A stretch of 64,000 nt of DNA. Source: SAR202 cluster bacterium bin16. Its GTDB lineage: Bacteria > Chloroflexota > Dehalococcoidia > Lucifugimonadales > Australimonadaceae. Shown in pieces: positions 1,234-43,585 of the stretch; the stretch's first letter is position 1, and each line of letters begins with the position of its first letter. The position numbers and the translations under genes are program-made. The stretch is taken from NCBI GenBank assembly GCA_002238425.1, contig MPMJ01000001.1, positions 62,001-126,000 of the forward strand. The letters run 5' to 3'. Below the pieces are notes generated by a model. That model was given only the letters and a program-made list of their open reading frames with translations, made no database searches and had not been told where the DNA came from.

Positions 1234-2388
1234 ATGGTTATGCAAGGCACCGACATGAAGGTGGCGGAGACGCCAACCGGTCAACTCGAAGACTTCCGCA
1301 TCCCCGACGCCTACGAGAACTGGCTGGAGAGCGAGGGAGTGATGGTCCACAAGACCTTCTACGTCCCCAACTGGCACGAGGTCGAGGTTGGCCCATGGGA
1401 GCGCAAGGGCGGCGAGGGCGCAGTCGTCCACATCGACAACGCCCACATGCCGAACGACCTCCACGTCGTGGACATCGTGCCCGGCGGCAAGTCCGAGCCC
1501 GAGCACCACATGTACGAGATCAACTTCTACATCGTCTCCGGGCGCGGCGCGACGACCGTCTGGATGGACGAGGACAGCAAGCAGACGTTCGAGTGGAGGG
1601 CCGGCTCTCTCTTCACCATCCCTCTGAACGCCTGGTACCAGCACTTCAACGGCTCCGGCGACGAGAAGGTGCGCTACATGGCCACCACAAACGCCCCGCC
1701 CATGATGCGCCTCTTCCGCGACACTGACTTCATGTTCAACAACGACTTCATGTTCCGCTCCCGCTACACGGACGACGAGTCCTACTTCAGCGGCAACGGC
1801 ACGCTCTACAACAAGCGCATCTGGGAGACGAACTTCATCCCCAATGCTCCGGACATGGCCCTCTACGGCTGGAAGGAGCGCGGCGCGGGCGGCATCAACG
1901 CCATGCTGCAGATGGGCAAGAACGACATGGGCAACCACATCTCCGAGTTCCCCATCGGCACCTACAAGAAGGCCCACCGCCACGGCCCCGGCGCCCACCT
2001 CTTCCTGCTCAGCGGCGACTCCGGCTTCTCCCTCCTGTGGACCAAGGAAGACCGCTCCGACATGATCAAGTGCGACTGGCAGATCGGCTCCATCGTCATC
2101 GTTCCCGGTGACGGCACCTACCACCAGCACTTCAACTCCGGCACGAAGCGCGCCCGCTACATGGCGCTGCGCGGCGGCAACGGCGGCTTCATCGGCCCCA
2201 ACCAGCGTGCCACCGCCGACGTCAGCATCAAGGAGGGCGGCATCCAGGTCGAGTACGAGGACGAGGACCGCGAGATCCACGAGATCTTCGAGGCCGAACT
2301 CGCCAAGTCAGGCGCCCAGTGCAACATGAAGGCGTTCATCCCCTACTGCACCGGTGTCGCAGGCGTCACCAGCGAGCGCGACACGTAG
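1234..2388 (+). CDS. Bicupin protein (paralogue 1)
   Basis: Protein of 384 residues with two cupin barrels. The N-terminal barrel carries PGGKSEPEHHMYE followed by VSGRG, a cupin motif 1 in which HH replaces the usual HxH. The C-terminal barrel carries KKAHRHGPGAH followed by LLSGDSG, with a full HxH plus third His, so a metal site is plausible there. Cupins of this architecture include ring-cleaving dioxygenases and sugar or small-acid binding proteins; the substrate cannot be read from the sequence. Start chosen at ATG 1234 because GAGGTGA lies 6 nt upstream. The next gene is a close paralogue, so this is a tandem duplication. Confidence 0.8.
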   Translation: MVMQGTDMKVAETPTGQLEDFRIPDAYENWLESEGVMVHKTFYVPNWHEVEVGPWERKGGEGAVVHIDNAHMPNDLHVVDIVPGGKSEPEHHMYEINFYIVSGRGATTVWMDEDSKQTFEWRAGSLFTIPLNAWYQHFNGSGDEKVRYMATTNAPPMMRLFRDTDFMFNNDFMFRSRYTDDESYFSGNGTLYNKRIWETNFIPNAPDMALYGWKERGAGGINAMLQMGKNDMGNHISEFPIGTYKKAHRHGPGAHLFLLSGDSGFSLLWTKEDRSDMIKCDWQIGSIVIVPGDGTYHQHFNSGTKRARYMALRGGNGGFIGPNQRATADVSIKEGGIQVEYEDEDREIHEIFEAELAKSGAQCNMKAFIPYCTGVAGVTSERDT

Positions 2389-2403
2389 GCGGCCTCCTAT
2401 CCT

Positions 2404-2430
2404 CCTCTCCCTCTGGGAGAGGGCCAGGGT
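2404..2430. repeat. REP-like palindrome
   Basis: CCTCTCCC (2404-2411), 3-nt spacer, GGGAGAGG (2415-2422), then GCCAGGGTGAGG. This is the form of short dispersed intergenic palindromes seen in many bacterial genomes. A hairpin of similar style (CCTTCCCCC with TCGAT loop) occurs at 40295. Confidence 0.55.
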
Positions 2431-2443
2431 GAGGGCGAAACAG

Positions 2444-2478
2444 GCGAAGGGCGGGGGCTGGTGCTCCCGCCCTTTCGC
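2444..2478 (+). terminator. Stem-loop between the two bicupin genes
   Basis: GCGAAGGGCGGG (2444-2455) pairs with CCCGCCCTTTCGC (2466-2478) with one bulged T. There is no long T tract, so it may be a partial terminator or an mRNA-stabilising processing hairpin. It lies just before the ribosome binding site of the second bicupin. Confidence 0.5.
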
Positions 2479-2502
2479 TATCAGAGCGGAAGGAGCAACG
2501 CC

Positions 2503-3669
2503 ATGACCACCAACGTCGGCGCCCAGGACGGCAGGATGCTGCGGGCGGAGGAGCCCGTCGAACCCCTCGGCGACTTCGAGGTCGACGACCCGTACATGGC
2601 GTGGGTGCGCGAGCAGGGCGTCCGGCATATCGTCGACTACGCCTTCGAGGACCTGAACGCACTCGAACTCTCCCCGTGGGAACCGAAGGGCGGCAGGGGC
2701 GCCATCATCAACATCCCCAACCGTCTCCTTCCGAACGACGCGCACGTCGTTGAGATTGCGCCCGGCGGCAAGTCGGAGCCCGTCCACCACATGTACGAGA
2801 CGCAGATGTACGTCCTCTCCGGCCGGGGCGCGGCCAGCATCTGGGTAGACGAGAGCCGCAAGCAGACGTTCGAGTGGAAGGCGGGCAGCGTCTTCGCCAT
2901 CCCGCTGAACGCCTGGTACCAGCTCTTCAACGGCTCCGGCGCCGAGCCCGCGCGCTACATCGCCGTCACCAGCGCGCCGCCCATCATGCGGCTCTACCGC
3001 GACAATCACTTCATCTTCAACCTGCCGTACGTCTTCTCCGGCCGCATCGCGGACGACTCCTATAACGGCAGCGGCAAGCTCTACAACGGGCGCATCTGGG
3101 AGTCCAACTTCATCCCCAACGCCGACAACATGCCGCTCTACGGCATGCCTCTGCGCGGCGCGGGCGGCATCAACGCCCAGTTGGAGATGGCGAAGAACAG
3201 CATCACCGCGCACATCTCCGAGTTCCCCGTCGGGACCTACAAGAAGGCGCACCACCACGGCCCCGGCGCGCACCTCATCATCCTCAGTGGCGACGCCGGT
3301 TTCTCGCTCCTCTGGAACGAGGACGACCGCTCCGACATGCGGAAGGTGGACTGGAAGAAGGGCTCCATGGTCGTCGTCCCCAGTGAGCGGACGTTCCACC
3401 AGCACTTCAACGCCGGCACGAAGCGGGCGCGCTACCTCGCACTGCGGCAGGGCGAGCACGGCCTCGTCGCCCCCTACGGCGGCTCCCGCCCCGGCGCGGA
3501 CCTCAGCATGAAATCCGGCGGCAGGCAGGTCGAGTACGAAGACGAGGCTCGCGAGATACACGACCTCTTCGAGGCCGAACTGGCGAAGAACGGCGCGACC
3601 TGCCACATGAAGAACTTCATCCCCTACTGCACCGGCGACGCCGCCGTCACCAACGAACGCGAGACGTAG
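2503..3669 (+). CDS. Bicupin protein (paralogue 2)
   Basis: Protein of 388 residues, clearly paralogous to the gene at 1234 along its full length. It shares PGGKSEP-x-HHMYE and SGRGAASIWVDE in the first barrel, KKAHHHGPGAH and LSGDAGFSLLW in the second, and a nearly identical ending FIPYCTG. The frame opens earlier at GTG 2461, but ATG 2503 is the better start: it is preceded by GGAAGGAG at 2488-2495 with 7-nt spacing and keeps the N terminus in register with the paralogue. Probably cotranscribed with it unless the hairpin between them stops transcription. Function unknown; the conserved HxH in the second barrel suggests metal binding. Confidence 0.8.
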   Translation: MTTNVGAQDGRMLRAEEPVEPLGDFEVDDPYMAWVREQGVRHIVDYAFEDLNALELSPWEPKGGRGAIINIPNRLLPNDAHVVEIAPGGKSEPVHHMYETQMYVLSGRGAASIWVDESRKQTFEWKAGSVFAIPLNAWYQLFNGSGAEPARYIAVTSAPPIMRLYRDNHFIFNLPYVFSGRIADDSYNGSGKLYNGRIWESNFIPNADNMPLYGMPLRGAGGINAQLEMAKNSITAHISEFPVGTYKKAHHHGPGAHLIILSGDAGFSLLWNEDDRSDMRKVDWKKGSMVVVPSERTFHQHFNAGTKRARYLALRQGEHGLVAPYGGSRPGADLSMKSGGRQVEYEDEAREIHDLFEAELAKNGATCHMKNFIPYCTGDAAVTNERET

Positions 3670-3672
3670 AAC

Positions 3673-3852
3673 GCAACACCCCCGCAGCATCGAGCAACGG
3701 AGATGCCGCACCGTGCAACGCGGATGCGACACAAGACGACGCGGATGCAACAGCCCCTCCACTCCTGAAGCGGAAGCCGTCAGGAGTGACGGCGGCGGGT
3801 GTGTTCCTGAAAACCGTTGCATCCTGTTGCATTCCCCTGCCGTCGTTCCCGC
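3673..3852. repeat. Short-word array (GCAAC / GTTGC) left of the AT-rich gene
   Basis: GCAAC words begin at 3673, 3693, 3715 and 3747, and the reverse-complement word GTTGC at 3816 and 3826 (10 nt apart). The decamer ACGCGGATGC occurs twice (3718 and 3739). No gene is supported in 3670-4054; this array and the repeat at 3889 are all I see there. Similar arrays occur at 5764 and 40454. Confidence 0.5.
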
Positions 3853-3888
3853 GCCCCAGCACGCCCCGGCATCTTCCGCTCCACCCAT

Positions 3889-3983
3889 GGAAACAGCGTA
3901 CGCAATCACGGTACGACCTCGAAAGAAGCGCGTGTCACGGATCCGGGGAATCAACATCGATGCACAGGATGGACAGGATGGGG
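3889..3983 (+). repeat. Left copy of an inverted repeat flanking the AT-rich gene
   Basis: Conserved blocks GGAAACAGCGTACGC, GTGTCA, GAATCAACATCGATG and GGACAGGATGGGGG. The same blocks, in the same order, occur on the opposite strand at 5641-5715. The first two blocks are separated by exactly 28 nt in both copies, about half of which match; the later blocks are separated by short gaps. Confidence 0.6.
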
Positions 3984-4054
3984 GATTTCGTCGTTCCCGG
4001 GCAGGCAGGAACTCACTTGGCAGCGAAAGTGCGATTTCTGCGAATTGCCGCTAT

Positions 4055-5452
4055 TCACTCTCGCTCCGGAGGTAATTGTTCCATCGGGCACCGCAGCAAA
4101 TCGACTACATCTTGAGCGGAAAGTCTGACTAGAGATCCGTCCACAGCGGTTACACGTCCATCTAGTCGGTGGACTCCTCTTTCAAACCAATGAGACGGAA
4201 ACTGCATGACAATGCGCTCCCCAGTTTTTATGCCATGATGGTCAGTCCACATGCGGAATTCATATTCGTTGTATAGAGTATTCTGAAATATGTCTTCATC
4301 AGTATCATCGGGAGATAGGCTTGTACCCTTTAGTTGGCTTTCAGGGTGATCCAGCACTGTATATGTCCACCGGGACTGAGAGGTTGTCGCGATATGAACC
4401 GGGACCGCCGCTTGGGCAATGATATAACGTTCCGCATCTTCGCGGGTCCAGGCCGCGGCAGTAGGAATTTCACCCATATGGACAAGCCATGCACCATCTG
4501 GCATCTGGCCAAGCCAAGCCAATAACTTTTCACCTGATGGGTCCCGAATTTCCGTAGTGTACTTACTAACAGGTGCTTTCTTGACCATCAGGCCTTGTGG
4601 TGCCTCTTGCGATCCCTCACGCAGGTATTCAAGCCGATGAGCCCAATAGCTGACCGCCCCGTCTTCATCGTGTGTGAGGTCATCCTTCACCAAGCGCAGG
4701 ATAGCCGATACCTTAGGTAATCCTTCCATCTGAAAATCAGTACAAGCAGCATCTTCCATCCCTTGCATATAGCGATACTGGCCAGTGCATGAACTCACCC
4801 ATCTACCGAGCTCATCACCAGCTTCGCGCAGAAGAAGAGCTCGGCGATTGAGCGCATGCATCACTTTGGTATCCACTCGCCAACAGACACCTTGCAAACG
4901 TTGCTCTTTCTCATACCGACGTCTTACCTGTATAGTGGCTATTGCGCGCAGCACTTCATAGTACAATTCTGCAACACGAGGTAAGAAGGCTCTCTGTACA
5001 GTTTCAACGGCTCTAGATTCCACTGTCCAATATCTGTATGATGTATAGAGGTCGCCATGACCAAACTGCTCCAGAAACGCCTTAAGCGACTGAAAGTATG
5101 ACGGGGTCTGACTATGGCATAATCTATAGAAACCCACTGCTTCTACAAACACTGCATTCAGATAGTCCGCTGCCACTCTGTCTTTCTTGAATAACACACC
5201 ATATATGTTACCCAAGGAATGGCCCTTCCGATAGTCGCTCAGCACTAGAGACTTGAGCCCTACTTCCACCACAGAATGGAGCATCGACTGAATCAGAGAA
5301 AACTTGGCTAAATTATAGCTTGGATCCATATCACTGAAATCTGGTTGCATATTCCGGTACTGGCTGATGGCCACCTTCACCAGAGCCATGGCACCTGAGT
5401 GCAAGAGATTGCTATCTTGCGTGTCCATGTGCGTTCTCTTGTTCCTAACCAT
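4055..5452 (-). CDS. Unknown protein, AT-rich island gene
   Basis: I do not recognise the family. The protein is 465 residues from ATG 5452, chosen because GGAAGGG lies about 8 nt upstream; the frame also opens at GTG 5521 and a further ATG is at 5428. Base composition is clearly more AT-rich than the neighbours and codon use differs, which suggests transfer. The first third is helical and contains ...LIQSMLHSVVEVGLKSLVL... followed by DYRKGHSLGN, which recalls HEPN-type helical domains (a Glu-x-x-Leu-Lys helix, then His-x-Leu), but a full R-x4-6-H RNase motif is not seen. The C-terminal part is mixed alpha/beta. It is bordered on both sides by inverted repeats and short-word arrays. A cargo or defence role is only a guess. 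Confidence 0.6.
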   Translation of the reverse strand: MVRNKRTHMDTQDSNLLHSGAMALVKVAISQYRNMQPDFSDMDPSYNLAKFSLIQSMLHSVVEVGLKSLVLSDYRKGHSLGNIYGVLFKKDRVAADYLNAVFVEAVGFYRLCHSQTPSYFQSLKAFLEQFGHGDLYTSYRYWTVESRAVETVQRAFLPRVAELYYEVLRAIATIQVRRRYEKEQRLQGVCWRVDTKVMHALNRRALLLREAGDELGRWVSSCTGQYRYMQGMEDAACTDFQMEGLPKVSAILRLVKDDLTHDEDGAVSYWAHRLEYLREGSQEAPQGLMVKKAPVSKYTTEIRDPSGEKLLAWLGQMPDGAWLVHMGEIPTAAAWTREDAERYIIAQAAVPVHIATTSQSRWTYTVLDHPESQLKGTSLSPDDTDEDIFQNTLYNEYEFRMWTDHHGIKTGERIVMQFPSHWFERGVHRLDGRVTAVDGSLVRLSAQDVVDLLRCPMEQLPPERE

Positions 5453-5640
5453 ACCACGACCCTTCCCTTTTCCTCCTACAGAATCAGCATCTTGTTCTGC
5501 GTATCCCCCACCAGCGAGCACGGGTCGACTAGAGGAAGCCTTGGATGCTCCCCATGCGCGGACACTCCGCTGCGCCCTCCTCGAGCGTCGTTAACGTCAC
5601 CCGGCGCCGCTCCGCCGCGAACACCCGCTGCGACAGCCCC

Positions 5641-5715
5641 CCTCCTGTCCATCCATGTTGATTCTCTGACACCGGCCCCTTCCGCGGTCGCGGTCCGACC
5701 GCGTACGCTGATTCC
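5641..5715 (-). repeat. Right copy of the inverted repeat flanking the AT-rich gene
   Basis: Read on the minus strand: GGAATCAGCGTACGC, 28 nt, GTGTCA, GAATCAACATGGATG, GACAGGAGGGGGG. It matches the copy at 3889-3983 in inverted orientation, with two short deletions relative to it. Confidence 0.6.
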
Positions 5716-5763
5716 GGCAGCGCTGCACAGGCGCCCGGCGGCGCAGCCGAGCCACTAATCAGG

Positions 5764-5897
5764 TGAGCAGTTATGAGCAGAAACGAACAGAAATGCACAG
5801 GGAATGAGCAGCGGATGAGCAGTTATGAGCAGCCGGGCTGCTCACGCGGAAGGCCGATTTCAGAGGTAGATCGGGGCTGATGAGCAGAAATGAGCAG
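5764..5897. repeat. Helically phased TGAGCAG word array
   Basis: TGAGCAG occurs at 5764, 5774, 5805, 5816, 5826, 5881 and 5891, with degenerate copies CGAACAG at 5784 and TGCACAG at 5794. Spacing within the first block is 10, 10, 10, 11, 11 and 10 nt, close to one DNA turn. One inverted copy, CTGCTCA, is at 5838. No gene is supported in 5453-5919; with the repeat at 5641 this array is what the gap holds. Confidence 0.6.
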
Positions 5898-5919
5898 CAT
5901 TTCCCCAAAAAACCTTTCC

Positions 5920-6633
5920 TCACCCTTGCTTGCGGGCGGCGCGACGGCCTGTCGCGCAGAGGTCGGAGAGGACGCAGGACGCGCATCGCGGCTCGCGCTT
6001 GGTGCACACGTCCTTGGCGTGAGCGTCCAGCAGCGCGTGGTACTCGTTGAAGAGCGCCGCGTCGTGGGGCAGGTGCCGCTCGAACAGCGACTGGTACGCG
6101 TCGTAGCCGCGCAGGCCGTGGCGCGGCAGCATCCGGTCCACGATCCGCTGGGTGTAGACGTCCATCACGAACGATGGCAGCTCCGCCACGTACAGCACGA
6201 TGTCGTCCGCCGTCTCCGGCCCGATGCCGTGCACCGACAGCAGCTCCTCGCGCAGCGTCTTCGGCTGCATGGCGCGCCACGCCTCCACGCTGTCGCCGTA
6301 GCGACCCAGGAAGTCGGCCATCGCCTTCAGCTTGCGTGCCTTGGCGTTGAAGTAACCGCTCGGGCGGACGACCTCGGCCAGCGCCTCCTCCGGCATCGCG
6401 CGCAGCGCAGCGGGCGACATCGCGTCCGCCGCCCTGAGGTTCGCAATGGCGCGCGCGGCGTTCGTCCACGCCGTGTTCTGCGTGAGTATCGCGCCGACGA
6501 TCGTCTCGAACGGGCCGTCGCCCGGCCACCAGCCCTGCGGGCCGTGATGCGTCAGCAGGCGGTCGTACGTCGTGGTGAGCAGCCGCGTAACGCGGGCGGA
6601 GCGGCGCATGGGGGCGGGGGCGGGTCGTGCCAT
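5920..6633 (-). CDS. Endonuclease III-family DNA glycosylase (MagIII-like)
   Basis: Base-excision repair glycosylase of the HhH-GPD superfamily, 237 residues. The helix-hairpin-helix is LLSVHGIGPETADDIVLY (131-148), the catalytic Asp is in FVMDVYTQR (D158), and a C-terminal [4Fe-4S] loop has C210-x6-C217-x2-C220-x5-C226. The lysine used by true endonuclease III for lyase chemistry is Glu140 here, as in monofunctional 3-methyladenine glycosylases of the MagIII type, so a lyase activity is unlikely. Start chosen at ATG 6633: a TAGCAT -10 box ends 7 nt upstream (6641-6646), which fits a leaderless mRNA. The start lies inside the 46-bp repeat that borders the DUF2806 insertion, and pyrF was probably its original divergent neighbour. 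Confidence 0.8.
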   Translation of the reverse strand: MARPAPAPMRRSARVTRLLTTTYDRLLTHHGPQGWWPGDGPFETIVGAILTQNTAWTNAARAIANLRAADAMSPAALRAMPEEALAEVVRPSGYFNAKARKLKAMADFLGRYGDSVEAWRAMQPKTLREELLSVHGIGPETADDIVLYVAELPSFVMDVYTQRIVDRMLPRHGLRGYDAYQSLFERHLPHDAALFNEYHALLDAHAKDVCTKREPRCASCVLSDLCATGRRAARKQG

Positions 6634-6669
6634 GCGCCCGATGCTACCAGCCGTCCGTGCTTGGTACAC
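6624..6669. repeat. 46-bp direct repeat, left copy
   Basis: Identical over all 46 bases to 7804-7849, offset 1180 bp. It starts GTCGTGCCATGCGCCC and ends CTTGGTACAC. It covers the 5' codons and -10 box of the glycosylase gene. Confidence 0.95.
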
Positions 6670-6697
6670 CTGTGACTAAGTCCTTTTACCTTCGGAT

Positions 6698-7720
6698 TTA
6701 AGGGTCAAGCCTGGTCAGTAGGTAGTCCTTAGTATCGAGAAACACCATCAATTCTTCCGTGTATTTCGGAACATTTTCAATGTTCACAACCGTGAATAGT
6801 TCTCGTCCTATGTCAGTGAACACAACAACACCGCTCAACTCGATTCTATTAGGTTGTTTGTTATTCTGATTGGGAGAAATCCACCATCGGCTACCTTGGT
6901 GAACCACTAGAGCGCCCGTGAGAACACTGCCTGCAGTTTGCCTGACTTTGGAGATCTCAATTGACCATGTCAAGTTATGCTCTGGAACCACCAATCCATG
7001 CTCAGACAGTCGCAGCAATGCACCGAACCCAAAGCCATGGTTATCTAGTCCGTCACTTCCAATATCTTTACCCAGTCCAGAAATAAACACTCGCGTGACT
7101 CTGTGATATGAACCCGGCGCTATAGCCAAGGAACATGCACGTCTGAAAAGCTTTGCCGTAGCCTGGTCTAAACTAGACAACGCTTTTACTGCTCTAATAG
7201 AAAATGACCCTGGTTCGCGAATTTCGCCTGCCAACATCTTAGCGAACGCATTCCGCATTTCTTCTGAACTCTTCTGCCTTCCTTCTGCCTCAAAGGCATT
7301 CAACCAATCATCGTCTATTGCTTGAGAGGAATCCTGTACTCCAGAAGAGTCCCCAAAATCAAGAGTTGCGATTATCTCTTCCAATGTCTTACTTGCTATA
7401 GAGTCTAGTCTGGCCTGTTCTCGTAGGATTTTTCGTCCAAATGCTTCGCCGGCCCAATCTACATACTCAGAGGGAACTTCCATCTGTTCAGCTATTCTCT
7501 CCGCAGCAGTCCTAGTCAGTAGAGCATTCGCATCATGCAATGCCCTTTGTTCACTGGATGGCTGCCTCATGCCTCTAAGTAGGTTGGAACCCAAATGCAT
7601 CAGTGCTTTGAATGCATTGCGCTTGATTTGAGGGGGTATCGGAACGCCTGTTACGCTATCAAGAATATCAGGCGTGAGGACGCCATCCATCATCGGCATA
7701 AGCTGTTCTTCATCATTCAT
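6698..7720 (-). CDS. DUF2806-family protein
   Basis: Protein of 340 residues matching my recollection of the DUF2806 family. The diagnostic central stretch runs DDDWLNAFEAEGRQKSSEEM, then FAKMLAGEIREPGSFSIRAV, residues about 136-180. The N-terminal part is helical; the C-terminal part is beta-rich with KVRQTAGSVLTG and ISPNQNNKQPNRI. No signal peptide or membrane segment is evident. The function of the family is not established. Composition is AT-rich compared with pyrF and the glycosylase on either side, and the gene lies alone between perfect 46-bp repeats, so it was acquired as a unit. Start ATG 7720 has only a weak GGGA upstream. Confidence 0.75.
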   Translation of the reverse strand: MNDEEQLMPMMDGVLTPDILDSVTGVPIPPQIKRNAFKALMHLGSNLLRGMRQPSSEQRALHDANALLTRTAAERIAEQMEVPSEYVDWAGEAFGRKILREQARLDSIASKTLEEIIATLDFGDSSGVQDSSQAIDDDWLNAFEAEGRQKSSEEMRNAFAKMLAGEIREPGSFSIRAVKALSSLDQATAKLFRRACSLAIAPGSYHRVTRVFISGLGKDIGSDGLDNHGFGFGALLRLSEHGLVVPEHNLTWSIEISKVRQTAGSVLTGALVVHQGSRWWISPNQNNKQPNRIELSGVVVFTDIGRELFTVVNIENVPKYTEELMVFLDTKDYLLTRLDP

Positions 7721-7803
7721 GCTGTTCCCGGCCTAGCCCACATGCTCTAACTGGCACACCGCGCCTCCTGCACCCAACCATACCAGACGCCGCGCAATCC
7801 CAA

Positions 7804-7849
7804 GTCGTGCCATGCGCCCGATGCTACCAGCCGTCCGTGCTTGGTACAC
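7804..7849. repeat. 46-bp direct repeat, right copy
   Basis: Identical to 6624-6669. Its last five bases, with the next T, form the TACACT -10 box (7845-7850) of pyrF. Confidence 0.95.
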
Positions 7850-7857
7850 TGAGGACC

Positions 7858-8685
7858 ATGAGCGCCTTCATCGAACAACTGGACACCGCCGCCGCGCGCA
7901 ACAGGAGCCTCCTGTGCGTCGGCCTGGACCCGTCGCTCCCCTCGATGCCCATCGACGACATCGCCGAGTTCAACCGCGCCATCATCGCCGCCACGAGCGA
8001 TCTCGTCTGCGCGTACAAGCCGCAGTGGGCGTTCTACGAGGCCGAGGGCATCCCCGGCATCGAGGCGCTGCAGGCCACCATCGAGGCCGTGCCCGACGGC
8101 GTGCCCGTCCTGCTCGACGCCAAGCGCGGCGACATGGACAACACCGCCCGCGCTTATGCGAAGGCGGCTTTCGAGCAGTGGGGCGCAGACGCCCTCACCG
8201 TGAACCCGTACCAGGGGCACGACGCCGTGCAGCCGTTCCTGGACTACGCGGACAGAGGCGTGTTCGTGCTCACGCGCACCTCCAACCCCGGCAGCGCCGA
8301 GTTCCAGGACCTCACCGTGCGCCGCAACGGGACGGAGGGCCCGCTCTACGAGGAGGTCGCGCGGCAGGCGGTCGCGTGGAACGACAACGGCAACATCGGG
8401 CTCGTCGTCGGCGCGACGGCGCCGGACGAACTCGCGCGGGTGCGGAGCATCGTCGGCTCGATGCCGATCCTCATCCCCGGCATCGGCGCGCAGGGCGGTG
8501 ATCTCGAGGCCGCCGTGCGGAACGGAACGGATGAGAATGGTCGCCGCGCGCTCATCGCCGCGTCCCGCAGCGTCATCTACGCATCGAAGGGCACGGACTT
8601 CGCAGAGGCCGCTCGCGCCGAGGCTCTGCGCTTGCGCGACGCCATCAACGCGGAGCTCGAGCGGATGAGCAGACCGTGGCCGTAG
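7858..8685 (+). CDS. pyrF: Orotidine 5'-phosphate decarboxylase, PyrF type 2
   Basis: Last step of UMP synthesis: decarboxylation of OMP in the cytoplasm. The protein is 275 residues, in the size range of the long (type 2) form. Motifs are LLCVGLDP near the N terminus, [18 protein letters not shown] (catalytic Lys-Asp array with the Asp of GDM), [13 protein letters not shown] and the phosphate-binding [11 protein letters not shown]. The frame opens at 7807, but ATG 7858 is right because a TACACT -10 box at 7845-7850 ends 7 nt upstream and the family N terminus begins here. The rest of the pyrimidine pathway is at 43619-51667, so pyrF is separate from the main operon. Confidence 0.95.
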
Positions 8686-19198: not shown

Positions 19199-20578
19199 CT
19201 AGTGCGACTTGGCTATCACTCTTGCGTAGCGGTTCAGGTAACGCCTCACCTTCACGAGTCTGAGTCCCTCGCCGATCTCCCAGATGGAGACCACCGGGAT
19301 AATCTTGCTGACGAGCATGAAGAGCAGCACGCATCCAGAGATGGCGCCGACAATGATGAGCAGGTCCGGCGCCTCAGGCCACTGCGTGGCCGGGCGCGGG
19401 TGCAGCACGTGCTGGCTCGGGTCTGCGACCGAAAAGGCCGAGACGTAGAGCCGCACCTGATTGACGAGCGCTCCGATGACCACGCCCGTTCCCACGAGCG
19501 CGGGTCCCCACACGCTGCGGCGCACGGGGTTCCAGACCAGCGCAATGAGCGGGCCGATGAAGTTGAGGAAGAATGAGATCATCAGCGCGCCCCGGTACTC
19601 GTCCAGCACCAGCAGGCGGATGACCTCGCTCTCGCCGGGCTGGCGTCCATACCAGAAGGTGATGAAGCTCGCCCACCAGAAGTAGAACCAGAGCAGGGAG
19701 AACGACAGCAACGGCTTGGAGAGCGCCCAGAACTGTTCCACGCTGAAGTACTTCTCGTAGTTCCCCAACCGGCGCATCAGGTACATGGTGAGGAGCGTCA
19801 TGCCCACCGCGCCCTGCAGGCCGTTGACCACCACCGTCGCGGGGATGATGGCGTCCTTCAGCCCCGGTATGAGCCCGTGGTGGAAGTCGGAGATCATGAG
19901 CGTCTGCACGAGCGGGTACGTGAGCAGGTACATCGCACCTGCGAGCAACGAGCCCTGGTAGAGCACGCGCCACTGGCGGACGCCACCGACCCACCCGAGC
20001 GACAACCAACCGATGACGCGCTGGCGCGTCGAGTTGGGGAGATGGTCCCGTGCCGCTGCGAGATCGGGCAGAGCGACGCCCCAGAGCAGGGCGAGGCCGA
20101 TGAACGCCAGTGTGCCGTAGCCGATGACGTCCCACACGCCGGGGGCGCCCAACGGGAATTCGAACCAGATGCTGAGCCTGCCGTCTATGGAAGGCAACGC
20201 GATGAGTGCGGGGATGAGCATCAGCACGACGAGCAGGCCAGTGATGGCCATGTTCTCCGTCACACGCGTGAGCGGCCGCCGCCAGTTCGCCTTCGCGAGG
20301 CGCAGCCCCGCTGAGATGACCGGCATGGCCGTGAACGTTGTGACGATGAATGCAAGCGTCGCGACGAAGTAGCCCCAGTTCGCGCGGTTCTCGTCGTTGA
20401 AGCCCTCCGAAAGGCGGATGATGAAACCGACGATGCCGAGGAGGAACAGGAACGCGAGCACGGTTACCCAGCCCCAGTACCGGTGTCCCAGGTCCTGGAA
20501 GCGGCCGAGCACGTCCCTCGCGACGTCTTGATGCGTCGGCAGAGGGCCGGCCGTGAATTCGTGTTCGCCGTTATGCAT
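19199..20578 (-). CDS. actC: NrfD/PsrC-type membrane subunit, ActC
   Basis: Polytopic membrane protein of 459 residues, paralogous to the gene at 17800, with about 10 spans. It carries the family pattern MLIPALIALPSIDGR and LMISDFHHGLIPGLKDAIIPATVVVNG. In alternative complex III, ActC works with the iron-sulfur protein ActB to oxidise menaquinol. The start overlaps the end of the iron-sulfur gene by 8 bp (ATGCATAA), a sign of translational coupling. Confidence 0.85.
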   Translation of the reverse strand: MHNGEHEFTAGPLPTHQDVARDVLGRFQDLGHRYWGWVTVLAFLFLLGIVGFIIRLSEGFNDENRANWGYFVATLAFIVTTFTAMPVISAGLRLAKANWRRPLTRVTENMAITGLLVVLMLIPALIALPSIDGRLSIWFEFPLGAPGVWDVIGYGTLAFIGLALLWGVALPDLAAARDHLPNSTRQRVIGWLSLGWVGGVRQWRVLYQGSLLAGAMYLLTYPLVQTLMISDFHHGLIPGLKDAIIPATVVVNGLQGAVGMTLLTMYLMRRLGNYEKYFSVEQFWALSKPLLSFSLLWFYFWWASFITFWYGRQPGESEVIRLLVLDEYRGALMISFFLNFIGPLIALVWNPVRRSVWGPALVGTGVVIGALVNQVRLYVSAFSVADPSQHVLHPRPATQWPEAPDLLIIVGAISGCVLLFMLVSKIIPVVSIWEIGEGLRLVKVRRYLNRYARVIAKSH

Positions 20579-21281
20579 GTGCGTCTACCTGCTTCAGGTA
20601 CTTCACGCTGGGGTTGGTGCCGAGCGCCTCGAGCACGCGGAAGGCGCGCTCGTCCTCCCACTTCTGCGAAACGCGAGAGTCGGGATTGTTCAGGTCCCCG
20701 AATGTCATGGCGTCGGTCGGGCACGCCTGCACGCACGCAGGGTTGAACGCCTGGTCCTCCACCTGTTTGCCGCCTCGGGTGCTCCGGCGGATGCGCTGGA
20801 TGCAGAAGGTGCACTTCTCCATGATGCCGCGCGTCCGCACGGTAACGTCCGGGTTCAACTGGTTCCGGAGGTCCTCCGGCCAGACCGGCTCCCAGTAGTT
20901 GAACAGCCGGGCGTGGTAGGGGCAGTTGTTGCCGCAGAAGCGTGTACCCACGCAGCGGTTGTACACCTGCACGTTGAGTCCCTCATTGTTGTGGTAGGTC
21001 GCATACACCGGGCAGACGGACTCGCACGGGGCGTTGTCGCAGTGCTGGCACAGGACGGGCAGGAAGCGCGCCTTGATGTCCGGGTAGTCCCCTTCCCAGT
21101 AGCGCTCCACTCGTATCCACTCGATGGCCCGGCCATCCAGGAATGCGGACTGATCGTTGAGTGGGATGTTGTTCTCAGACTGGCAGGCGATTACGCATGC
21201 CTGGCAGCCGGTACAGCGGTCCAGGTCAATGACCATCCCCCACTTGTGGTCTGCCCGTGTGCTCTGTGTACGCGTTGCCAT
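20571..21281 (-). CDS. Four-cluster iron-sulfur subunit, ActB2 of alternative complex III
   Basis: Ferredoxin-like protein of 236 residues with four Cys groups in the order seen in PsrB/NrfC-type subunits: CTGCQACVIAC, then CQHCDNAPC with VCP, then CVGTRFCGNNCP, and CTFCIQRI with CVQACP. These hold three [4Fe-4S] and probably one [3Fe-4S] cluster. In many organisms this domain is fused to the molybdopterin-like domain as ActB; here they are separate genes. Start ATG 21281 has AGGA upstream; a longer frame before MATRTQ is spurious. Confidence 0.9.
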   Translation of the reverse strand: MATRTQSTRADHKWGMVIDLDRCTGCQACVIACQSENNIPLNDQSAFLDGRAIEWIRVERYWEGDYPDIKARFLPVLCQHCDNAPCESVCPVYATYHNNEGLNVQVYNRCVGTRFCGNNCPYHARLFNYWEPVWPEDLRNQLNPDVTVRTRGIMEKCTFCIQRIRRSTRGGKQVEDQAFNPACVQACPTDAMTFGDLNNPDSRVSQKWEDERAFRVLEALGTNPSVKYLKQVDAHA

Positions 21282-41830: not shown

Positions 41831-43585
41831 TCAACGCTGAGGGACGGCCTTCGGCTCCACGGGCTGCAGCACCCCGATGTACGGCAGGTTGCGGTAGCGC
41901 CCGCCGTAGTCCAGCCCGTAGCCGATGACGAACTCGTCCGGCACCTCGAAGCCAACGTAGCCTATGGGCACGTCCGCCATCCGGCGCACGGACTTGTCGA
42001 GCATCGTGCAGACGCGCACACTCGCGGGGCCCTTCGCCTGCAGGTACTCCAGCAGGTAGCGCAACGTGAGTCCGGTGTCCACGATGTCCTCGACGATGAT
42101 CACGTGCCGCCCCTTGAGCTCAGTCATCACGTCGCGGATAACGTCGATGCTCTTCTCCCGCTCCTCGCCGTAGTGGGTGATCTCCATGAACTCGACCTGC
42201 ACCGGCAGGTTCATGGCCCGCATCAGGTCCGCCATGAACACGACCACCCCTCGGAGGATGCCGATGAGCACCGGCTCCTCCCCGGCATAGTCCTCCGTGA
42301 GCTGAGCGCCGAGTTCCCGTACGCGCCTCTGCACGGTGGCCTCATCGAACAGCACACGCTCCGTCCCCTCGACCGATACCTCCGAGAGTGGCCCGAAACC
42401 GTACTTGCCCATCAGCCGCATCAGGTCGCGCCGGTAGAGCAACTGCACGTTCACCTCCGGATACATCTCCCGCACATGCCGGAGCTTCCGGTTCTTCTGG
42501 GTGACCAGGTTCTGCTTCATCGTGGTCAGCTCGAAGTACTGGTCGTACTCCGGCAGGTAGAAGTCCGGCGTGAACATCTCCACGACACGGCTCCCATCCC
42601 AGCGCAGAGGGAAAGAGCGAGGCTCGTAGAGGTAGTTGATGTGGTAGTAGTCGAGAAGGTCGGCGAACTCCTTCTCGCTCGGGTGCATGAAGGCCTTGGT
42701 GGGAGCCACCTCGTCCGTGTCACGACGGCTGCCACGACGCCCTCTCCTCCCTCCGCCTGCGTCCCGGTCCCGTTCTGTCGCTCGCGGTTCATTCGATGGG
42801 GGAGGCATTCCAAGCGCAGCGCGTTCCGCGGTTTGCCTGCCCCGGCCGCGACGACGTGATGGGGTTCGTTGCCCTTCGCCAGGACCAGCGTCTTCCGCTG
42901 GAGGCTCGCTCACCTCCTCGGGTGGCTGCGCGGCAGCGATGCCGGGCGAACGGCGTCCGCGACGACGCGTCGGCTCCCTCTGCGGCTCTTCAGAAGCAGT
43001 GTCCTGCGCAGGCGATTCGCTTGGCTCATCGGAAGCAGGTGCTCCAGCTATCCCGGGTGAACGACGCCCACGGCGGCGCGAAGGTGCGCGCTGCGGTTCC
43101 TCGGCAGCAGCATCGTCTGTAGGCGCTCCGTTCACTTCCTCCGAAACAGGTGCGGCAGCTATGCCGGGCGAACGACTCCCGCGGCGACGCGTGGGTGCGC
43201 GCTGCGGTTCCTCGGCAGCAGCATCCTCTGCAGGCGCTTCGCTCACTTCCTCCGAATCAGGTGCAGCAGCTATGCCGGGCGAACGACGTCCGCGCCGACG
43301 CGTTGTAGCCCGCTGTGGTTCCTCGGGTGCGGTGTCGTCCTGCGCAGGCGATTCGCTTGCTTCATCGGACGGCTGCGCGGCAGCGATGCCAGGTGAGCGA
43401 CGCCCGCGACGCCGCGCAGGCGCGCGCTGAGGTTCTTCCGAAGCGGCCGATGATTCGTTCACCGCATCGGTCGTAGGCGCGCTTTCGGTTGTGGCGTCCG
43501 CAGTACTGCCACGTGTGGCCCTGCGCCGTCGAGGGCGCGGTTCCGGGTCCTCGGGGGGGTCTGCCTGCTGGGGATCCTGCACCAT
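41831..43585 (-). CDS. hpt: Hypoxanthine phosphoribosyltransferase fused to a nuclease-like domain and an Arg-rich repeat tail
   Basis: Protein of 584 residues with three parts. Residues 1-300 are disordered: five full 37-38-residue repeats (from residue 50, EEPQRAP-x-RRRGRRSPGIA) plus a partial one. Residues about 300-395 look like a restriction-endonuclease-like fold: HPSEKEFADLLDYYHINYLYEP, then FTPDFYLPEYDQYFELTTMK. Residues about 410-584 are a purine phosphoribosyltransferase: VLIGILRGVVVFMADL, ITHYG, the PRPP loop VIIVEDIVDTGLTL, and FEVPDEFVIGYGLDY. Ordinary Hpt is about 180 residues. The enzyme part salvages hypoxanthine or guanine; the role of the rest is unknown. Convergent with the amidohydrolase, 7 bp apart. 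Confidence 0.85.
   Translation of the reverse strand: MVQDPQQADPPEDPEPRPRRRRATRGSTADATTESAPTTDAVNESSAASEEPQRAPARRRGRRSPGIAAAQPSDEASESPAQDDTAPEEPQRATTRRRGRRSPGIAAAPDSEEVSEAPAEDAAAEEPQRAPTRRRGSRSPGIAAAPVSEEVNGAPTDDAAAEEPQRAPSRRRGRRSPGIAGAPASDEPSESPAQDTASEEPQREPTRRRGRRSPGIAAAQPPEEVSEPPAEDAGPGEGQRTPSRRRGRGRQTAERAALGMPPPSNEPRATERDRDAGGGRRGRRGSRRDTDEVAPTKAFMHPSEKEFADLLDYYHINYLYEPRSFPLRWDGSRVVEMFTPDFYLPEYDQYFELTTMKQNLVTQKNRKLRHVREMYPEVNVQLLYRRDLMRLMGKYGFGPLSEVSVEGTERVLFDEATVQRRVRELGAQLTEDYAGEEPVLIGILRGVVVFMADLMRAMNLPVQVEFMEITHYGEEREKSIDVIRDVMTELKGRHVIIVEDIVDTGLTLRYLLEYLQAKGPASVRVCTMLDKSVRRMADVPIGYVGFEVPDEFVIGYGLDYGGRYRNLPYIGVLQPVEPKAVPQR

Follow-up and report, generated by a model that had tools for sequence, protein, structure and literature searches.

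A DUF2806 gene recently inserted in the divergent glycosylase/pyrF promoter of a SAR202 cluster bacterium, with an unusually long target duplication

How does a single accessory gene that brings no mobile element of its own enter a chromosome? Such events are poorly explained generally, and the question is raised by a locus in the 64,000 bp stretch of DNA from SAR202 cluster bacterium bin16 analysed here (the window), in which a DUF2806 gene lies between two copies of a 46 bp sequence drawn from the divergent promoter of a DNA glycosylase gene and pyrF. The states before and after the event are both seen at base resolution, and the 46 bp scar narrows the mechanism. The features of the locus, in window coordinates, are as follows.

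5920–6633, minus strand: HhH-GPD DNA glycosylase/endonuclease III-like gene, the left neighbour (PF00730, E 3.5e-13)
6624–6669, no strand: left copy of the 46 bp duplication, with the glycosylase promoter in use and the first codons of that gene; its pyrF box is cut short (TACAC, then C)
6641–6646, minus strand: glycosylase -10-like box TAGCAT in the left copy, extended (TGG ahead); second copy at 7821–7826
6670–7803, no strand: inserted segment, 1134 bp, 47.7% GC, not in the four congeneric genomes
6698–7720, minus strand: DUF2806 gene, 340 aa, the cargo (PF10987, E 4.8e-19; GC3 0.43)
7733–7813, minus strand: chimeric 26-codon leader ORF, in which the glycosylase ATG GCA CGA C runs on into insert sequence; it stops 12 nt short of the DUF2806 ATG
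7804–7849, no strand: right copy of the 46 bp duplication, with the pyrF promoter (base 7850 finishes TACACT) and an extra glycosylase promoter and start that point toward DUF2806
7845–7850, plus strand: pyrF -10-like box TACACT, 7 nt ahead of the pyrF ATG and kept in relatives
7858–8685, plus strand: pyrF, orotidine 5'-phosphate decarboxylase, the right neighbour (PF00215, E 1e-34)

The duplicated divergent promoter and its empty site

When recomputed, the two copies are identical at 46 of 46 positions, as an earlier note on this DNA had it, with a start-to-start spacing of 1180 bp; the expectation of an exact 46-base match by chance, with every pair within the window considered, is ~2e-17. 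The note took the repeat to mark an insertion and proposed that sister genomes be searched for an empty site with one copy, and both the site and the reading of the 46 bp as a target duplication are borne out. The pyrF flank was compared with 59 related genomes and the DUF2806 protein with 98. In four congeneric species (G002 to G005) the glycosylase and pyrF blocks meet exactly through a single copy of the 46 bp, whose edges line up with those of the repeat. The DUF2806 gene is missing from every other genome of the genus, five in number, and in the family as a whole from all 15 other genomes tested; it is present in four of the 98 relatives, the window's own genome included.

The single copies in the sisters differ from the window sequence at 7, 3, 2 and 2 of the 46 positions, and both window copies bear the species' own bases, as expected of a target-site duplication. 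Because the window copies are identical to each other while the sister copies differ, the extra copy was most likely made recently, in this lineage and from its own target; the basis for this is the sister-genome comparison and not the repeat alone. An assembly artefact might be feared in a MAG of 101 contigs, but separate spanning k-mers are needed for each junction, 46 bp is less than an ordinary read length, and taking one copy and the insert out of the window restores exactly the sister arrangement, so that this explanation is highly improbable. We conclude that the insertion of this gene is real, recent and cleanly documented; its target duplication is unusually long, and it brought no mobile-element machinery.

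The flanks bear on a further possibility, namely homologous import from a conspecific strain in which DUF2806 already preceded pyrF, the left junction being illegitimate (homology-facilitated illegitimate recombination). Import of this kind gives the same final structure, and the 44 bp copy beside an AbiP2 gene on another contig (C12, see below) could be read in the same way. However, the first 250 bp to the right of the junction are 91–92% identical to G003, G004 and G005 and the left flank is alike within noise, so there is no step in identity to the sisters at the junction; on this ground we reject another lineage as the source of the pyrF side. The homology-based insertion entertained in the earlier note would need a donor with exactly the recipient's sequence at the site, and it does no more than shift the origin of the insertion to another strain; we regard it as unlikely.

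At one edge the duplication takes in the first ten bases of the glycosylase coding sequence (ATG GCA CGA C), and at the other the first five bases of the pyrF box. TAGCAT and TACACT each have TGG ahead and an ATG 7 nt after them on their own strand, and both boxes are largely conserved in the sister species, as is their spacing; the 7 nt between box and ATG suggests leaderless transcripts for both the glycosylase and pyrF. The earlier description of the repeat as a bidirectional promoter is right in outline, with the TAGCAT and TACACT boxes recognised, the glycosylase start inside the 46 bp and the final T of TACACT outside, but needs correction in two respects. The left copy reads TACACC; this left pyrF box is broken and pyrF is served by the right copy only. 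The second departure is that the right-hand glycosylase promoter and start codon face DUF2806, by way of the 26-codon leader ORF (MARLGIARRLVWLGAGGAVCQLEHVG) that the insertion created. Judging from this arrangement, the spare glycosylase promoter probably transcribes DUF2806 through the leader ORF.

Since the 46 bp covers both promoters, the left copy leaves the glycosylase its promoter (with the insert now as upstream DNA) and the right copy leaves pyrF its own, in agreement with the earlier proposal that each neighbour is left with one, and both neighbours should keep working after the insertion. An insertion without such a duplication would cost one of them its promoter, and the promoter-preserving outcome may therefore be what selection let survive. 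The locus illustrates a tolerated insertion in a divergent housekeeping promoter, and shows how a newcomer there can gain a promoter at once.

The insert and its DUF2806 gene

Gene calling and family profiles reveal no transposase, integrase or tRNA in the insert, and DUF2806 is its sole gene with a family match, which upholds the view of the cargo as a single AT-rich gene with no recombinase (GC3 is 0.43, versus 0.93 in both neighbours). The insert has no terminal inverted repeats, the longest shared inverted end being 5 bp. A search of Rfam gave no match. Insertion sequences and transposons are similar in that direct repeats of the target flank the insert and the empty site has one copy, but a transposase and terminal inverted repeats are both lacking here, and the duplication of 46 bp is far above the 2–14 bp that is usual for transposons.

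Integrative mobilizable elements with att sites also have direct repeats of tens of base pairs, and the earlier note had likened the 46 bp to an attachment site. Site-specific integration would have a circle of 1180 bp inserted by a recombinase of the tyrosine or serine type that is supplied in trans; 46 bp is a typical length for att cores, at least two tyrosine-recombinase-like proteins are encoded elsewhere in the genome, and there is an inverted TACCA/TGGTA pair inside the repeat. This pair is accounted for by the two divergent TGGTA promoters, however, and the integrases are on other contigs, the insert itself coding for no recombinase. The 46 bp contains no tRNA and has no other occurrence in the genome, and its exact 46-mer has no match in the genome and viral collections searched. 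Moreover, both copies carry species-private bases, and an incoming att would have needed these same bases, different from those of every sister. The attachment-site reading fares poorly against these observations, and site-specific integration seems unlikely.

The DUF2806 assignment itself stands, at 69.5 bits for PF10987 against a gathering cut-off of 24.5. The match to TIGR03899 (E 1.6e-18) scores 67.2 bits and falls below the NCBIfam cut-off of 155.65, and the protein is thus a distant member. Searches of PADLOC gave no match and of PDB by sequence no significant match, and a structure prediction from a five-row alignment has a mean pLDDT of 39 and is too poor for use. Its best relatives are 22–35% identical. 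DUF2806 relatives occur elsewhere as lone genes. One is amid the tail genes of Paracoccus phage Pkon1, a second is close to an end of Sinorhizobium phage phi3LM21, and a third, in a Methylocella prophage, is on the opposite strand and flanked by two terminase-like genes (so named from our own reading of the translations). Relatives are also found on Phaeobacter plasmids and on hundreds of enterobacterial plasmids, IncX4 plasmids among them, and in a survey of the phylum five of 400 genomes had a match. An mcr-1 cassette is reported to interrupt the enterobacterial plasmid gene, and both papers found on DUF2806 deal with mcr-positive E. coli, one of them saying nothing of function in its title and abstract.

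This distribution is that expected of an accessory moron, and the cargo resembles such a phage 'moron': it is a lone accessory gene of foreign composition, with relatives at variable places in phages. As with phage morons, one AT-rich gene is set between conserved genes (e.g. in Pkon1 and the Methylocella prophage). It departs from them in that its neighbours are the glycosylase and pyrF, a chromosomal housekeeping locus and not a prophage, and in the 46 bp target duplication around it. The phage and plasmid copies have no such duplication, and a search for long direct repeats around other DUF2806 genes, as proposed in the earlier note, gave none of note. A role in defence or exclusion is a guess.

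Possible routes of insertion

Four observations need to be explained together: the empty sites in the sisters, the duplication of the species' own target, the foreign composition of the insert and the absence of an encoded recombinase. Our preferred explanation, which we hold tentatively, is that ~1.1 kb of foreign DNA with one moron-type gene was captured at a chromosome break, with duplication of the 46 bp target and joining by Ku and a ligase. Two nicks ~46 nt apart on opposite strands of the divergent glycosylase/pyrF promoter would produce a break with long overhangs, which would be filled in, and Ku with its partner ligase would then join the foreign fragment in between. The genome encodes Ku (PF02735, E 2e-50) in a gene adjoining that for an ATP-dependent ligase (PF01068, PF04679); a LigD domain of the PF13298 type was not found in the genome search. 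In mouse cells, joining of breaks with protruding ends yields direct duplications of the overhang segment (PMC5730883). The likeness is that the segment between staggered nicks is directly duplicated, and the dependence on end joining belongs to the mouse system; those duplications are mostly without a kilobase insert, and end joining is a proposed route here. Counting against capture by end joining, it does not by itself predict the similar lengths of the duplications in this genome (46, 44 and 45–47 bp), of which there are a tiny number.

The same scar would also result from replication. MMBIR-like template switching would give an insert together with an upstream duplication and need no mobile enzyme: replication would move over to a foreign fragment and then return 46 bp behind the point at which it had left. 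There is no clear microhomology at either junction, however, as far as the recipient side shows; we consider this route rather improbable.

Parallel duplications and other features

A scan for near-perfect direct repeats, with paralogues and dispersed repeats excluded, covered 2.11 of the 3.22 Mb of the genome. Within it, the 46 bp pair is the only non-paralogous exact repeat of that size around an AT-rich insert, and there are two notable parallels. First, on contig C12 (18466–19519) two perfect copies of the 44 bp 3' end of a gene enclose a RAYT-like gene accompanied by REP-like repeats (NF047646, E 5.8e-13, below the cut-off), and four congeneric genomes have one copy of this 44 bp sequence. 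Next to the outer copy, at about 19580–21262, is an AT-rich AbiP2 reverse-transcriptase gene (PADLOC, E 6.7e-195). We downgraded this case as a clean RAYT target duplication: G004 has a RAYT gene at the same place without a second 44 bp copy, and which part of the C12 region moved is therefore ambiguous. The AbiP2 gene is a second phage-type accessory gene in the genome.

In the second parallel, on contig C75 (11476–12537), the 5' half of a tRNA-Arg(CCT) gene is duplicated (45 of 47 positions) around a PEP-mutase gene, with the tRNA half upstream of that gene and the intact tRNA behind it. The upstream half is decayed in G004, and this duplication, being common to at least G002 and G004, is older. 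We discounted the remaining direct repeats of the scan, which belong to paralogous genes, dispersed repeats of the REP-like type or tandem arrays. As the cases are few, the likeness in length is a lead and not a result; the 44 bp and 45–47 bp parallels make a census across the genus worthwhile.

One way to account for such lengths is an unrecognised transposition-like enzyme that makes target duplications of ~45 bp and moves short single-gene segments. The 46 and 44 bp cases are the only recent single-locus duplications of that size in the 2.11 Mb, with the older tRNA case at 45–47 bp, and both recent duplications begin at GG/GTCG (P ~0.004 for a six-base run). Yet there are only two of these, their right-hand edges have no convincing match, the ends of the inserts are unrelated, and the moved segment is ambiguous in the 44 bp case; known transposases duplicate far fewer bases. 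We think such an enzyme very doubtful. The sequences of the 44 bp and 45–47 bp duplications are unrelated to the 46 bp, which is a further point against site-specific integration. A lineage with a recurrent pathway, in which single foreign accessory or defence genes are inserted with target duplications of ~45 bp and no encoded transposase, would be a long shot.

Several other features of the window were noted. On the other side of the glycosylase is a second AT-rich orphan gene (4055–5521, minus strand, 488 aa, GC3 0.47), which has no match in Pfam, NCBIfam, PHROG, PADLOC or PDB. The stretch that bears it (3670–5935) is 0.3–0.5 kb long and different in G004 and G005, and is without long flanking repeats. 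Downstream of the glycosylase, at 5759–5898, are repeated units of the ATGAGCAG type (TGAGCAGTTATGAGCAG) that are not seen in the aligned stretch of the sisters. Tandem paralogous genes that are 75–80% identical occupy 1392–3669 with a spacing of ~1.28 kb, and at 42890–43447 there are five tandem units of 111 bp that are 67–79% alike.
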